A DNA stretch of 64,000 bases from assembly GCF_003413745.1 (NCBI RefSeq), contig NZ_QVID01000001.1, positions 1 to 64,000 on the forward strand. Direction: 5' to 3'. The stretch comes from Marixanthomonas ophiurae (GTDB lineage: Bacteria; Bacteroidota; Bacteroidia; Flavobacteriales; Flavobacteriaceae). Below, piece after piece: positions 45,907-60,676 of the stretch (within the stretch, counting starts at the first letter, position 1; each line of letters opens with the position of its first letter). The position numbers were made by a program, and so were the translations under genes. The notes under the pieces are model-generated. The model was not told where the DNA came from. It saw nothing but the letters and a program-made list of their open reading frames with translations, and did not search any database.

Positions 45907-46590
45907 ATGTCGCAACCGGTTTTAGAATTAAAAGACGCCGCTATTTACCAACGAGAAAACCTGATCTTATCTGATGTTTCCGTACGGGTTGAAAAAGGGG
46001 AATTTGTTTATTTAATTGGAAAAACTGGAACTGGGAAGAGTAGTTTTATGAAAACCTTGTACGGCGACCTACCATTACAAGAAGGAAAAGGCGAAATTGT
46101 AGGCTACGATTTGCCTACCTTAAAAGAAAAAGACATTCCGTTTTTACGAAGAAAATTAGGGGTTGTTTTTCAAGATTTTAAATTATTGAACGACCGTACC
46201 GTAAAAAAGAACTTGCACTTTGTTTTAACCGCTACTGGCTGGAAAGACAAAAAAGAGATGGATGCCAAAATTGATGAAGTTTTGGGAAAAGTAGATATGA
46301 AAACCAAAGCGTTTAAATATCCGTATCAACTTTCTGGCGGGGAACAACAACGTGTAGCGATTGCAAGAGCTTTATTAAATGATCCAGAATTAATATTAGC
46401 CGATGAGCCAACCGGTAACTTAGACCCACAAACCAGCGTAGAAGTAATGGAAGTATTGCAGGAAATAAATAAAAACGGCAACACTATTTTAATGGCCACA
46501 CACGATTATGCCTTGTTGTTAAAATACCCTTCCAAAACCTTAAAATGTGATGAAAATCAAATTTTTGAGGTGGTACAGAAGACGGTTTAG
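45907..46590 (+). CDS. ftsE: FtsE-like ABC transporter ATP-binding protein
   Basis: 227 residues. Walker [10 protein letters not shown] near 38-46, Q-loop VVFQDFKLL, signature [16 protein letters not shown], Walker [13 protein letters not shown] and switch His in MATHDYALL. The segment [17 protein letters not shown] and the short size match FtsE. FtsE with FtsX controls septal peptidoglycan hydrolases. No ftsX gene is adjacent, which is common in this group, so assignment to FtsE rather than a LolD-like ATPase rests on sequence pattern. The TAG stop is immediately followed by a heptad array. Confidence 0.8.
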
Positions 46591-46646
46591 GTTAGAGGTT
46601 AGAGGTTAGAGGTTAGAGGTTAGAGGTTAGAGGTTAGAGGTTAGAG
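46590..46646 (+). repeat. Perfect heptanucleotide array (GGTTAGA x8)
   Basis: 57 nt made of eight exact copies of GGTTAGA plus one G. It begins at the last base of the ftsE-like TAG stop codon. The following 180 nt to the subtilase stop contain no recognisable gene. A plus-strand ORF that starts at 46723 runs antisense into the subtilase gene and is unlikely to be real. Confidence 0.95.
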
Positions 46647-46829
46647 AAAATAATCTTTATTTTTCAATGTCTGGGATTCTCTACTTCAATTTTCTCTTTT
46701 TTACCGGTATCTTCGATACGTTTTGAAAGCAATCGAAATTGGAAGAAAAAACAAGTTGGTTTGGCTTTCAAAACACTCAGACACCTTATTCGGTCTAAAA
46801 AGTAATCTCCATAAACTCGCAGATCAACT

Positions 46830-55227: not shown

Positions 55228-56711
55228 TATTTTTTTCTTCTGAAAAAGTTTTGAATCAAATCCCGTATCGCTATTTTTTCGTCAATATTATAGACTGAAA
55301 AGATACTTGAAATTAGTATCATCACACTTAAGGAAATATATTTCAACACATCATCTTCTACAAACGACAGTAAAAACGAAAGAGTACAAAGTACGATAGA
55401 AATTCCGAAAATGTAATAAAACTCTTTTCTAAATGTAAAATTATAACGGTAATAAGTTATGAGCCAAATCACTATAAAATGAATAATAAAATAGATAAAA
55501 TAACTAATCCCTAGGCCTTCAAGTCCCCAATAGGTGTATCCGATGATATTCATAACCACTAAAATACTATTAAACCCAATAGCTGTTTTGATAAATATTT
55601 TGGAGTCACCTTTCGCAATAATAATGTACCCTAATGAAAAGGAAACCGCTTTAAACAACATTCCTAAAATACCCCAACTTACAAATTGTACAGTTGGTGT
55701 AAACTCTTGACTATACAGCAATGTTATAAAAAAGGGTGCAAAAGCAACAAATATGACAATAATCGGGACAATAATTAACACTGCAACATACGCTTGTTCA
55801 AAAACTATGTTTCGTATTTTTTCAATGGCATTAGAAACTGCCGAAAGACGCGGAAAATAATCCGTACTCATTGCATTGAACACCAACCCTACGTATGTGT
55901 TTAAAATCATCATCCCCGCATTGTAATACCCAACCGAATCGACCCCACCTTCATTACTAATATAAATTTGAATAACATACGCCGCAATCAACGTTATTAC
56001 ACTACTTACACTCAACGTAACGCCCAAGTGAATCATCTCTTTCCCTTCGGAAAAGGCTTCTTTATTGGTCAGTGATACCTTTTCAACTTTGGTTTTGTTG
56101 GTGTAATACAGCGTAATCACAAAACTGATAAGCGAAGCAATGATAATAGCCGGTATGATGGCTTCTATTCTGAAAAAATAATATAACGGCACGGTTATAA
56201 TAAGTCCAACCGTATTCCCTACTAAATTGGCTTTGGCCAAATTAACCAGCTTTTGCAATCCTTGTAAAATGGCCAAATTGCTATGTGTAAACTGTTTAAA
56301 AAGAAGCGCTAATGAAAGCCAAATAAACGAAACAGTATATTCTTTACTTTCAAAAGCTATTTCACTCAACCAAGGTGACATTATCATCATTAAAACAGCT
56401 CCAATAACTGCTGTAAACCAAACCAAGCGTTTTAAAACGTGAATTGTCCGGGCTACTTTATTGGCTTTATAATTTTCTTTGGCGTACGAAATATCCTTGA
56501 CCGCGCTTCGATTAAGGCCAAGATTGGTAACAGCATCCACCACATTAAGGGTCGTGTTAAACAAGCTGGCAATCCCCATTCCTGTAGGACCGATAAACAA
56601 CGCAATAAACTTAGACCGCACAATAGAAATAAGAATGTTGAAAACCTGAACCCCGCCAAATAACGAAGTGGCTTTCATAACATGCCTAAATGAGTTTTTG
56701 TACGGTTGCAT
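55227..56711 (-). CDS. Oligosaccharide flippase (Wzx/MVF-type)
   Basis: 494 residues, about 12-14 membrane segments. Starts MQPYKNSFRHVMKATSLFGGVQVFNIL and has the family segment VRSKFIALFIGPTGMGIASLF. It moves lipid-linked oligosaccharides across the inner membrane. It is the second of two flippase genes in tandem: the upstream one ends 2 nt before this start. The C-terminus is basic (NFFRRKK). Confidence 0.88.
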   Translation of the reverse strand: MQPYKNSFRHVMKATSLFGGVQVFNILISIVRSKFIALFIGPTGMGIASLFNTTLNVVDAVTNLGLNRSAVKDISYAKENYKANKVARTIHVLKRLVWFTAVIGAVLMMIMSPWLSEIAFESKEYTVSFIWLSLALLFKQFTHSNLAILQGLQKLVNLAKANLVGNTVGLIITVPLYYFFRIEAIIPAIIIASLISFVITLYYTNKTKVEKVSLTNKEAFSEGKEMIHLGVTLSVSSVITLIAAYVIQIYISNEGGVDSVGYYNAGMMILNTYVGLVFNAMSTDYFPRLSAVSNAIEKIRNIVFEQAYVAVLIIVPIIVIFVAFAPFFITLLYSQEFTPTVQFVSWGILGMLFKAVSFSLGYIIIAKGDSKIFIKTAIGFNSILVVMNIIGYTYWGLEGLGISYFIYFIIHFIVIWLITYYRYNFTFRKEFYYIFGISIVLCTLSFLLSFVEDDVLKYISLSVMILISSIFSVYNIDEKIAIRDLIQNFFRRKK

Positions 56712-56713
56712 CG

Positions 56714-58015
56714 TTATGGTTTTAAGGCTTCAGGGTTATTCTTTTGCTTTTTAAAATAGCGCATCACCAAGAAAAAGACCAAGAAAAAATACAGTATATA
56801 CCGAATAAAATGTGCTATTACCACACCTTCCACTCCGTATTCATCTACTAACAAATAGGAAAGACCGTAGAATAAAGCAAGCGAAAATAATTCAGTAAAA
56901 ATAAAATTACGCACCATTTTCTTTGCAATAAACTGGTGTAGTAGTACCAAAGCGGCCAGTTTTATAAAATCGCCTAACAATTGCCACTTAAATAACGGAG
57001 CCATTTCGTCAAAATCGATGAAGATGTATTCTATAAATTGAAAGCGTAGAAAATAGATGACCACCATTCCGACACCAAATAACGGCAACAGAGTTTTATA
57101 GATGTTAAACAGTTCTTTTTTAAAACCTGACTCTGTTTTTAATCCAGTAAATTTAGGAATCACATATAAGGTAAATATAGCCCCTGAAAACACCATATAA
57201 TTTTTTGAAAGCGTAGTCATCCCAGTCCATATACCTGCATCATCTGCACTCAATCGTTTGGCTAACATAGAACGAATATCTATTTCCACGTAACTTACCA
57301 GTACAGTTGCTACAAAGGACATTAATGAAAAGGCCAATAAGCTTTTTGCATAGGGTGCTTTAAACGAAATGTTGGAAAAATGTAGATACTCGCGAAGCAC
57401 TTTTATAAAAATAAAAAGCATCACAGCAACCTGAATAACCGGAATTAGCGCAATAGCAAGCAACGCTCCATCTATGCTATACTGATACAACATTAGTAAG
57501 GTTAACGTAGCTCCTAACAAGTATGCAACTAATTCTATTTTTGCAAATTTCTTGTAATCAGACAGGCCATTTACAATTCCGTTAAATACGCGTTGTATCG
57601 CAATAAAAGGTGCCACAACGGCCACTATTTTAACGATGTATTCAAAATCGCGGGTATAAAAAAGGTGCTCACTAATAAAGCCAGCCCCAAAAAATAATAC
57701 TGTAAACGAAGTGACACTACCCAAAACAGTAAACACAAAGGCAGTTGAAAACAGTTTTTGAAGCCTTTCACTGTCATCTTTATAATCTGCTACATATTTT
57801 ACTACGCCATTAAAAATACCAAACGAGGTAATAGACGTTAACATTTGTAACAAGTTACGCAATGAACCGATTTTTGCGTATCCAGCTTTCCCAACGATAT
57901 CAGTCAACTCTCGTTGTAGAAAAAAAGCAACAAATAACCGTATAACGATAACCCCAGCGTTTAAAGAGGTCATCTTTAAAAGTAGGTTGTCGCGTATAAA
58001 TTTTGGGATTTTCAA
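56714..58015 (-). CDS. Oligosaccharide flippase, second copy, TTG start
   Basis: 433 residues with about 12 membrane segments. Starts at TTG 58015 (KIPKFIRDNLLLKMTSLNAG). Residues such as IGSLRNLLQMLTSITSFGIFNGVVKYVADYKDD match Wzx/O-antigen flippases. It is not closely similar to the tandem neighbour, so it is not a recent duplicate. Two flippases in one cluster suggest two exported glycans or divergent roles. Its start lies only 46 nt from the stop of the four-helix-bundle gene, across a G-rich heptad tract. Confidence 0.85.
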   Translation of the reverse strand: MKIPKFIRDNLLLKMTSLNAGVIVIRLFVAFFLQRELTDIVGKAGYAKIGSLRNLLQMLTSITSFGIFNGVVKYVADYKDDSERLQKLFSTAFVFTVLGSVTSFTVLFFGAGFISEHLFYTRDFEYIVKIVAVVAPFIAIQRVFNGIVNGLSDYKKFAKIELVAYLLGATLTLLMLYQYSIDGALLAIALIPVIQVAVMLFIFIKVLREYLHFSNISFKAPYAKSLLAFSLMSFVATVLVSYVEIDIRSMLAKRLSADDAGIWTGMTTLSKNYMVFSGAIFTLYVIPKFTGLKTESGFKKELFNIYKTLLPLFGVGMVVIYFLRFQFIEYIFIDFDEMAPLFKWQLLGDFIKLAALVLLHQFIAKKMVRNFIFTELFSLALFYGLSYLLVDEYGVEGVVIAHFIRYILYFFLVFFLVMRYFKKQKNNPEALKP

Positions 58016-58020
58016 GGTTA

Positions 58021-58049
58021 GTTGGTAGTGGGTAGTTTATAGTGGTTAG
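58021..58049 (+). repeat. Left inverted repeat with G-rich heptads
   Basis: The tract runs gttggtagtg ggtagtttat agtggttag. Positions 58030-58049 (GGGTAGTTTATAGTGGTTAG) pair with the inverse copy at 58497-58516 in 18 of 20 positions. Seven-base spacing of TAG (58026, 58033, 58040, 58047) links it to the other heptad tracts. Confidence 0.85.
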
Positions 58050-58060
58050 TAAATGGTTTA

Positions 58061-58426
58061 TTATTTGTTTCTGAGATATTTTTGCAAGCTACTAGTCATT
58101 TTTGAGAGTTCCACGAGTTTTTCGCGTGTGTTCCTATCTTTGTCCTCAGTTATATATTTTCTCCTTTTTGCAATTGTGGAACAAACAACACATTCTTTTA
58201 TCGAATTACCCGAAATCTGTAAATAACGGTTAAATTGTTTATCTGTATCCCCGGAACCTTCGGCAATATTCAATGATATGGAGATAGCCGCCCGAATATA
58301 TTGAGAAGAAAGCCGATACATTTCTTCTTTTGGGAAATCATCAGTAATATCATAAACCATATCCACAAAATCCAACGATTTTTTATATACTTTTAAATCT
58401 TCAAAATTAAATTTAGTTGGTTCCAT
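58061..58426 (-). CDS. Four-helix-bundle protein (23S rRNA IVS / S23 type)
   Basis: 121 residues, all alpha. The family blocks are visible: FEDLKVYKKSLDFVDMVY near the start, FPKEEMYRLSSQYIRAAISI, SLNIAEGSGD, and a C-terminal helix with LVELSKMTSSLQKYL. Such proteins are encoded in intervening sequences of 23S rRNA genes of some bacteria and as scattered small genes in Bacteroidota; relatives serve as accessory proteins of diversity-generating retroelements. No reverse transcriptase is present here. It breaks the flippase/fdtB gene line and is bracketed by 20-bp inverted repeats, so it looks inserted. Its biochemical role is unknown. Confidence 0.85.
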   Translation of the reverse strand: MEPTKFNFEDLKVYKKSLDFVDMVYDITDDFPKEEMYRLSSQYIRAAISISLNIAEGSGDTDKQFNRYLQISGNSIKECVVCSTIAKRRKYITEDKDRNTREKLVELSKMTSSLQKYLRNK

Positions 58427-58474
58427 AAAAATTATCTTTAGTTAACAATTAAAATGTCCACTATATTCAAATAC

Positions 58475-58520
58475 CTACTCTCTATTTCACTACCCTCTAC
58501 CCACTAGAAACTACCCTCTA
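58475..58520 (-). repeat. Right inverted repeat with heptads running into the fdtB stop codon
   Basis: CTA occurs at 58475, 58482, 58490, 58497, 58504, 58511 and 58518 (spacing 7, once 8). The last CTA is the TAG stop codon of fdtB on the minus strand. Positions 58497-58516 are the inverse of 58030-58049 with 2 mismatches, including a perfect 10-bp core (tagtgggtag at 58026-58035 against ctacccacta at 58497-58506). Confidence 0.85.
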
Positions 58521-59624
58521 TTCCTGCCAACCATTTAAAACTAAAATAATCTCATCTACCTCTTCATCACCCATCACTGGACTTATTGGAATACTCACTA
58601 CTTCATTATGGATTTGCTCCGTAATTGGAAATGATAACGTATTATACTCTGGTAACGCCTCTTGTTGGTGTGGGGGAATGGGATAATGTATTAATGTTCC
58701 TATTTCGTTCTCCTTTAAATATTCTATAAAGTCTGTACGGTCTTTTACCCGAACCACAAACAAATGAAAAATATGATTATCACTGCTATCCCATTCGGGA
58801 AGCGTGATTTTTTTATTATTTATTTCAGAAATGTACTTTCTCGCCAAATTGCGTCGGCGTTCATTATCAGCATCGAGCTTCGGTAATTTTACATTTAAAA
58901 AAGTTGCTTGTACTTCATCCAACCGGGAATTGAAACCGGTTAATTCATTTACATATTTTGAAGAAGCGCCGTAATTACGAAGTTTCCACAGTACGGAGGC
59001 TAACTCATCATCGTTCGTTGTAACTGCTCCACCATCGCCTAAGGCACCTAAATTTTTGGTGGGATAAAAACTGAAACCAGCTGCATCTCCCAAATCTCCG
59101 GCTCGTTTACCATTTGTATTTTTTGCTCCGTGAGCTTGTGCGGCGTCTTCAATCACTAATAAGTTATTTTCTTTTGCCACTTTTGAAATCGCGTCCATCG
59201 GAGCCAACTGTCCGTATAAATGAACCGGCATAATGGCTTTTGTGGTTTCAGAAATCGCTCCTTCCAACGCTTGTATATTGAAGTTGTATGTTTCCAATTC
59301 AGCTTCCACCAAAACTGGAGTCATTCCAGCTTGTTTAATGGCTAAAATAGTAGCGATGTAGGTATTTGAAGCTACCAAGACCTCATCACCTTCGTGTAGC
59401 TTTCCTAACACCTTATAGCCTTCTAAAATCAATCGTAGGGCTTCTAATCCGTTAGCAACTCCAATACAATGTTTTGTTCCGCAGTATTCAGCAAAGCTGG
59501 TTTCAAAAGAACTGACATTGTTTCCTAGAATATAATATCCAGAATCTAAAAATGCTTTAAACCGCAACTGAAATTCAGCTTCAAAACGGGCATTGATTTT
59601 ATGTAAATCTAAAAATGGAATCAT
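58518..59624 (-). CDS. DegT/DnrJ/EryC1 aminotransferase, FdtB/QdtB-like
   Basis: 368 residues, PLP enzyme of fold type I. PLP lysine Lys190 in [16 protein letters not shown], the phosphate-binding region [11 protein letters not shown] and the Asp of [11 protein letters not shown] are present. The opening [13 protein letters not shown] and length match dTDP-3-keto-6-deoxyhexose 3-aminotransferases. With the FdtA-type isomerase at 51196 it would make dTDP-Fuc3N or dTDP-Qui3N for the surface polysaccharide. Its start overlaps the stop of the GNAT gene by 4 nt (ATGA coupling). The TAG stop is part of the heptad array. Confidence 0.88.
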
Positions 59625-60676
59625 ATCAATGATAGGTCTAAAGTTTTATACACAGCAGTCTCTACAACGTAATTATCTGCTGTAAACGTACGTGCACCAC
59701 AGCTTTCTTTCCAGAAAATAAGCCCTTGATTTAAATGCTTACCGTTTTCTTCGCTTGAAATATTAAAATCAAAATACCGCTTATCAGTTTTGAAATGATT
59801 AATGATAAAGTCGTACGCCAAGTCTAAACTTCCGTAGGTGTTTTTATCTACATTCCCTGAAACATATTGCGGATGAATAGTGGTTTTAGTTAAAAAAACC
59901 GTTGTCCCGGCGACTATTTTTTTGTCTTTATAGACACTTACTTGTTTAATATGCTGAGGAAAACGGGATGCTAGCAATTTAATCTCTTCTAGTGTATGAA
60001 CAGGCTTAACTCTGTGTTTTTTCTGAAGGTTTGGGATTAAAATTTCATTCCAAAATCCTTCGTAATTATCATCAATTTGTACTGTTAACCCGTTTCTGAT
60101 CGCTTTGTTAATGCCTTCTCGTCTGTTTTTCTGAAATCGTAATTTATTTTCATAATCAATCACCATTAATGCATCACGCTTTACTACGGTCGCATTTGCT
60201 TTAAAAAGAAAGTACGATAATTCATCTGCTGGAAGGGTGTTGTAAAAAGTTGGGATGACACGAATATCAAGGGTTTTAATTCCCTCAGTATATAAAAATT
60301 CGAGCGCAGCTTTAAAAGCTTCAAAAGCAGCTAATAGTTTCCCTTTTTCCTGTAACACAAAACTTCCATACGTCAATCCTTGATGCGAAATAACCGTATC
60401 TCCTTTTTTATTTGCCGGTAAAACAGCGTAAAGCTTTTCATCTTTATAGACCATCAATGAAAAATCTTCAAATCGATCACTGTGATACTCCATAAAGTTT
60501 CGGTTGAATAAAAAGGTTGCGTTTTTTGCCGAGGCGATAAAATCATTCCATTCCGCTTTATGCGAAGTAGTATATTTTTGTACCTGAAATTCAGGATTGT
60601 TTTTATTTTTCGGTGTATTCAAGAAACTAATATTGGTTACGCCATGTAAAACTAAAATTATTTTTACTTTTAGCAA
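59621..60676 (-). CDS. FemAB-like GNAT-family acetyltransferase
   Basis: Up to 351 residues. The conserved part begins with [35 protein letters not shown], then [19 protein letters not shown], and a C-terminal GNAT core ([32 protein letters not shown]). This family occurs in flavobacterial polysaccharide clusters and probably acylates or aminoacylates a sugar. The ATG at 60676 adds about 30 atypical residues; the TTG at 60622 ([12 protein letters not shown]) is a plausible real start, as TTG starts are used elsewhere here. Coupled to fdtB; first gene of the minus-strand fdtB-flippase-acyltransferase line. Confidence 0.75.

Follow-up and report, generated by a model that had tools for sequence, protein, structure and literature searches.

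A probable mobile cassette of an S23-type four-helix-bundle gene and inverted heptad arms in an operon of Marixanthomonas ophiurae

A unit of about 0.5 kb, placed exactly between the stop codon of an aminotransferase gene and the start codon of a flippase gene, is very probably a mobile cassette. It lies in the window (the whole stretch of 64,000 nucleotides analysed here, positions 1 to 64,000 of contig NZ_QVID01000001.1 of Marixanthomonas ophiurae, genome G000) and consists of an S23-type four-helix-bundle gene between two inverted arms of 7-bp units (heptads). Our best explanation, which we consider reasonably likely, is a cassette of S23 gene and heptad arms that is of the rRNA-intervening-sequence kind, lives between protein genes and may have its ends read by its own protein.

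When the seven genus genomes (G000 included) were searched with the region, the aminotransferase–flippase junction proved empty in five (G054, G120, G121, G122 and G124) and cassette-bearing in two (G000 and G123). At the empty junctions a TAA stop is directly followed by the TTG start of the flippase gene. Between G000 and G123 the cassette gene has 96.1% nucleotide identity (dS 0.17), compared with 78.7% (dS 1.30) for the upstream aminotransferase gene and 67.0% (dS 1.76) for the downstream flippase gene; the cassette, being so much younger than its flanks, has moved horizontally, and recently. The flanking sequence of G000 is nearest to that of G054, G120 and G121, all three of which are empty, rather than to that of the occupied G123. 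The final ∼14 bases of the G000 aminotransferase gene, on the left side only, resemble the occupied G123 allele, and this shared stretch would also fit ordinary recombination between alleles. A clear target-site duplication was not seen at the two clean empty sites that were inspected by eye.

An initial annotation of this DNA had already proposed a mobile unit of gene and ends, and the five empty sites, together with inverted arms at homologues elsewhere, bear this out. It had also named what would speak against mobility (the gene at the same place everywhere, no similar ends, no empty site); this was checked, and is not what the genomes hold.

Gene, arms and borders at the window site

The borders of the cassette (Table 1) were defined by comparison with empty sites, the left one being uncertain by ∼15 bp. 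The length of about 0.5 kb given in the initial annotation stands, but its limits, 58021–58520, are replaced by 58016 and 58526. With the stop codon included, the length of the insert is 511 bp for G000 and 504 bp for G123. The upstream neighbour, which had been called fdtB, is a DegT/DnrJ aminotransferase gene, the more specific NCBIfam names falling under their cut-offs.

Table 1. Features of the cassette and its neighbours in window coordinates
Feature	Coordinates	Strand	Basis or remark
Whole cassette, 511 bp	58016..58526	-	Missing as a block in five of the seven genus genomes
S23/IVP-type four-helix-bundle gene, 121 aa	58061..58426	-	Profile match, predicted fold, dN/dS against G123
Left arm (sense-upstream of the gene)	58475..58526	-	Degenerate heptads, GGGTAGT/TAGAGGG type
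Right arm	58016..58049	+	Like the left-arm heptads, in inverted orientation (GGTTAGTTGGTAGTGGGTAGTTTATAGTGGTTAG)
Aminotransferase TAG stop, provided by the left arm	58518..58520	-	Two codons longer than the G123 copy
Upstream neighbour: DegT/DnrJ-family aminotransferase (fdtB-like)	58518..59624	-	Open reading frame and profile matches
Downstream neighbour: flippase (Polysacc_synt)	56714..58015	-	TTG start abuts the cassette

The 20-mer at 58030–58049 and its inverse with two mismatches at 58497–58516, which had drawn attention to the unit, are present; the inverted arms are listed at 58026–58049 and 58497–58520 and are 88% complementary, so the cassette carries terminal inverted repeats as MITEs do. 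Computed on the two 160-bp flanks of the gene, the inverted local-alignment score is 34, a value reached in two out of 5000 first-order Markov resamplings. No transposase is found inside the unit (58016–58526), as had been noted before. Compared with known RNA families, the region 56500–60000 has no rRNA match and a single match, at 59857–59905, with a score below the gathering threshold.

The 121-residue protein encoded in the cassette belongs, as the initial annotation had it, to the S23/IVS type: it matches PF05635 and TIGR02436 above cut-off (E-values 6.4e-30 and 6.8e-28), and the PF05635/S23 match inside the element scores 104 bits against a cut-off of 33.8. Its AlphaFold2 model has four helices (pLDDT 96.2), and the best fold matches in the PDB are 2GSC and 2RLD, followed by Avd at weaker E-values. 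These two solved relatives, XCC0516 (2GSC) and BT_0352 (2RLD), are also recovered by sequence search, and they reach TM-scores of 0.75 to 0.89 (normalised to the model). The proposed kinship to the proteins of 23S rRNA intervening sequences, and by fold to Avd, is supported in this way, with the protein scoring below the cut-offs of the Avd families themselves (25.1 against 80 bits for NF033474 and 24.8 against 40 for PF22296). To our knowledge S23 proteins have solved structures and no known function. Between the window gene and its G123 copy dN is 0.010 and dS 0.170; more generally, cassette proteins are under strong purifying selection, with a median dN/dS of 0.09 (84 of 97 pairs with finite dS; the pairs are not independent), which points to a working protein.

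Heptad arms and the distribution of cassettes

The arms at the window site and elsewhere consist of degenerate 7-bp units, a description that the initial annotation had given for the window: self-identity at lag 7 is 0.60–0.63 in the flanks, compared with 0.41–0.49 at lags other than 7 and 14, and with 0.41–0.42 at lag 7 in the gene. In a first set of 94 units the median inverted arm score is 24.5 (16 for swapped partners) and 41 units exceed the swapped 95th percentile; 0 out of 153 control genes lie above the 99th. A named set of 84 units gives a median of 29 (again 16 when swapped), with 59 above the 95th percentile. This percentile is also exceeded by 19 of 28 units from other phyla (14 genomes, reached via the named loci); 12 of these units overlap with the named set, and nine of the other 16 exceed the percentile, one of them cyanobacterial (L306). 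Arms are present at L287, a unit of an archaeal draft genome. When a single unit is drawn per site cluster, so that no site counts repeatedly, five draws of the 82 clusters place 57–60 above the swapped 95th percentile and 37–42 above the 99th, with the true partner in first rank for 37–41. Arms are not evident in all units: 22–25 of the 82 clusters are at or under the swapped 95th percentile.

Arms that match within a cassette differ between cassettes, and their similarity follows the gene: its mean is 14.5 for pairs with 35–45% protein identity, 22.2 for pairs with 70–75% (24 pairs) and 35.4 for pairs with at least 75% (six pairs). Over 18,045 unit pairs with unrelated flanks the rank correlation is small (Spearman 0.08) because few pairs are close, and none of 500 permutations was as high. 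For example, L145 and L158 share 85% protein identity, lie in unrelated operons and have no flank homology that we could find. A comparison at shared sites, in which the left arm was trimmed at the upstream stop codon, shows change in concert: at the largest site (34 usable out of 41 units) the left arm scores a median of 24 against its own right arm and 14 against the left arms of other species, and the next cluster (14 usable out of 18) gives 24.5 and 15. In four small same-site clusters (three or four units each) the match within a locus is barely above that between loci, or below it.

The order of the units is uninformative between arms (16.0 observed and 15.95 permuted, p 0.46, 85 loci), in a test for which a simulated stem with 30% mutation gives p 6e-16. 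Ends common to the cassettes of one genome were not seen either (14.98 for same-genome and 14.80 for different-genome comparisons, p 0.097); heptads differ among the cassettes of a genome, which makes a single genome-wide heptad reader unlikely. Inspection by eye suggests direct rather than inverted repeats around the four-helix genes of L296 (cyanobacterial) and L305 (desulfobacterial), and an arm period of 8 or 9 rather than 7 at L166, L207, L212 and L213.

PF05635 genes are found in 88 out of 120 family genomes sampled, with 1–15 copies each, and in all seven genomes of the genus (3, 13, 2, 2, 2, 8 and 8 matches, fragments included), G000 having three only. The best 80 of 554 confirmed candidates, kept from a scan of one genome per species, span many phyla. 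As carriers on mobile replicons we found 15 plasmid records, all cyanobacterial and below 60% identity, and no phage record. The copy in Aequorivita lipolytica (71% protein identity) has an apparently interrupted reading frame and, by eye, similar heptads; it is placed between the ATPase and permease genes of an apparent metal transporter. Several short loci (L086, L128, L199 and L201 among others) hold two four-helix units each, at neighbouring junctions in L086.

Eight further junctions were searched with joined flanks across the genus (gene names at these junctions were assigned by eye). The junction of odhB with the next gene is occupied in one of seven genomes and cleanly empty in six; mraY–murD is occupied in two of seven and sufC–sufD in one of seven. 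Among the six genomes in which each of the following junctions was found, the cassette is present in two at ffh–folD (one of these two with an internal stop), in one at atpA–atpG, in three at fadB–fadA and in two at the thiolase–acyl-CoA dehydrogenase junction. The wzm–wzt junction, found in four, is occupied in two and cleanly empty in one, and in G000 it holds a remnant that consists of arms only. Unoccupied spacers at atpA–atpG, fadB–fadA, sufC–sufD and thiolase–acyl-CoA dehydrogenase hold short inverted-heptad hairpins, not clean sequence. At the thiolase–acyl-CoA dehydrogenase junction a pair of cassettes has a dS of 0.07, compared with 0.28 and 0.72 for the flanks; in the remaining same-site pairs cassette and flanks have similar ages by this measure.

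The atpA–atpG spacer hairpins of five genomes (L251–L255) have arms that vary by species and, by eye, are largely complementary within each. At wzm–wzt, the G000 remnant (L258, contig 1, 1799579–1800045) has heptad arms around ∼110 bp without a four-helix gene; its counterpart is a cassette in G122 and G124, and is clean in G121.

Placement relative to neighbouring genes is mostly in sense: 159 of 173 scored units are on the strand of both neighbours, 10 have divergent and four convergent neighbours, and no unit runs antisense to both. Among control neighbour pairs, 237 of 283 are co-directional. Counted by site cluster (73 scorable out of 82), 59 are sense with both neighbours, 10 divergent, four convergent and none antisense to both. 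Within the 14 loci with other neighbour orientations we found one tRNA and no rRNA at gathering thresholds. Of 163 upstream neighbours 92 stop on TAG, compared with 30 of 198 cassette genes and 39 of 136 downstream genes, and by eye the left array often starts within the upstream stop codon.

Relatives and competing explanations

The nearest known kind of element is the 23S rRNA intervening sequence, and there is a fair chance that the cassette represents a separate class. According to parts of PMC4990558, the intervening sequence of Coxiella burnetii is 428 nt long, holds an S23 gene with tandem heptamers just before the start codon, is termed selfish and horizontally acquired, and is excised by RNase III; its S23 protein is reportedly probably not made in vivo, and the Xanthomonas family member XCC0516 (2GSC) is described as a homopentamer. 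The window cassette likewise has an S23 gene and inverted arms with heptamers, but it lies between aminotransferase and flippase genes, not in a helix of 23S rRNA. Unlike the Coxiella element, operon cassettes have heptads that differ from one cassette to another, and their dN/dS suggests a functional product.

Other relatives share single traits. Avd (PDB 4DWL and 8UB7) has the four-helix fold in common with the window protein. Avd partners a reverse transcriptase in diversity-generating retroelements, in agreement with the PDB titles; unlike such retroelements, G000 has no RVT_1 match (E 1e-6) and the window protein is below the Avd cut-off. RAYT/REPIN systems and MITEs are resembled in that the cassette is short and intergenic with inverted ends, and in one arms-only derivative (L258); the differences are that G000 has no Y1 transposase match and that the cassette ends are private tandem heptads, whereas REP is a shared palindrome. 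Intergenic heptamers of Xanthomonas and Nostoc, described in parts of PMC4692102, have a period of 7, with the G-rich strand being sense soon after a stop codon and antisense soon before a start codon, and occur as paired inverted copies in Xanthomonas. The arms of the window cassette have this polarity in common with them. PMC4692102 studies quadruplex formation, and S23 and helix bundle are absent from its main text; a periodic-repeat survey (parts of PMC6344855) names intergenic heptamers as the most abundant, without clear function. No report of S23 cassettes in operons was found in searches of an open-access library, subscription papers being mostly outside the search.

The initial annotation had raised protein binding to the ends as an alternative to movement in trans, and we favour it, tentatively: the cassette's own protein may read the cassette ends. 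Heptad identity is common to the two arms and unit order is not. This speaks against an RNA stem under selection and in favour of the cassette's own protein as the reader; if the heptad were read unit by unit, the order of the units could change over time with their sequence still kept alike in the two arms. Given recognition that is unit by unit and specific to the cassette, and no genome-wide reader, the obvious locus-specific protein would be the cassette's own. This protein would bind both inverted arrays as duplex DNA, perhaps with several subunits of a ring on successive heptads, and would draw the two ends together, cutting and joining falling to host replication or repair functions, or to another enzyme. 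The sense orientation would be most simply understood as reliance on operon read-through for expression, with selection against antisense copies. The correlation between protein and heptads could arise from common descent alone, and no single column of the protein significantly tracks heptad type (0.072, with 0.077 at the permutation 95th percentile).

An RNA-level intervening sequence is unlikely; here the arms would pair in the operon transcript, and the gene loop would be cut out or trimmed by RNase III in the way known from 23S rRNA. In its favour are the related rRNA element, which has an S23 gene and heptamers and is excised by RNase III (parts of PMC4990558), the lack of units antisense to both neighbours (159 of 173 being sense) and the atpA–atpG hairpins, which vary by species yet remain complementary within each. 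Against it, arm mismatches have no G.U bias in the sense strand: the lowest threshold gives 176 G.U and 222 A.C, a difference that runs the other way (p 0.024), and p is 0.10 at two stricter ones. In addition, unit order is uninformative in a test of ample power, and the window unit, with a z-score of −0.93, does not fold better than usual. An mRNA intervening sequence with a selected paired stem is unsupported by the mismatches, the fold z-score and the unit-order permutation.

Rather less probable again is a unit that cannot move by itself; ordinary homologous recombination and horizontal transfer would then spread the alleles that have or lack it, and the heptads would be products of slippage. 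The short left-flank stretch in common with the occupied allele and the existence of solo heptad arrays without an adjoining gene would agree with this; close cassettes with similar arms in unrelated operons (L145 and L158) would not, and slippage of each arm alone would not yield one heptad common to both.

We consider it improbable that the unit is non-autonomous and depends for movement on a RAYT/HUH transposase or a reverse transcriptase acting in trans. Movement by RAYT or HUH proteins, suggested in the initial annotation, finds no support in our searches: at E 1e-6 neither Y1_Tnp nor RVT_1 has a match in G000, Y1_Tnp is missing from 58 of the 88 carriers, 42 of the 88 lack both families (including genomes with 10, 9, 8 and 8 copies), and cassettes of one genome have no common ends. 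PF05635 is commoner in genomes with Y1_Tnp (30 of 33, compared with 58 of 87 without, Fisher p 0.0099), an excess that may reflect general mobile-DNA load, and RVT_1 is not associated with carriage (25 of 31 and 63 of 89, p 0.35); the similarity in fold to Avd, partner of retroelement reverse transcriptases, also speaks for a helper. As far as the profile searches show, neither Y1_Tnp nor RVT_1 is required.

A stable operon gene inherited vertically is hardly credible, for all that some sites are widely shared (the largest same-site cluster has 41 units, fadB–fadA among them) and the gene is under purifying selection, since empty junctions within the genus contradict it at the window site, copy number ranges from 2 to 13 matches per genome among the seven, and the cassette is much younger than its flanks.

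Wider meaning and solo arrays

The cassette ties S23 proteins to heptad repeats through exact empty sites and through a matched pair of gene and repeat in each copy, which opens binding, movement and specificity to direct tests. Operons of many bacteria contain similar cassettes, each with repeats of its own, and these may help to explain microbial 7-base repeats. A wider picture, which we offer as a speculation with the odds somewhat against it, is one of a widespread class of minimal mobile elements: the tandem heptads at both ends of a cassette would be recognised, in a code private to the lineage, by an Avd-like pentameric ring of the cassette's own protein. If this were true, the heptad arrays that stand between genes across prokaryotes, solo or paired, would mark places where cassettes land or have left remains. 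The rRNA intervening sequence would then count as a single special address, and retroelement Avd would derive from such a protein by recruitment, which would suggest an origin for this partner of diversity-generating retroelements.

Solo arrays are also found in G000. The window holds a perfect AGGTTAG array of 8.3 copies (46588–46647) with no four-helix gene alongside, which begins within the TAG stop of an ABC-transporter-like ATPase gene (45907–46590). Three other loci of this genome (L008, L010 and L038) have solo arrays of the GTTGGTA or GTTGTTA type, away from all three PF05635 genes. A longer tandem repeat, with a unit of 240 bp in 3.8 copies, lies at 1386–2290 of the window.
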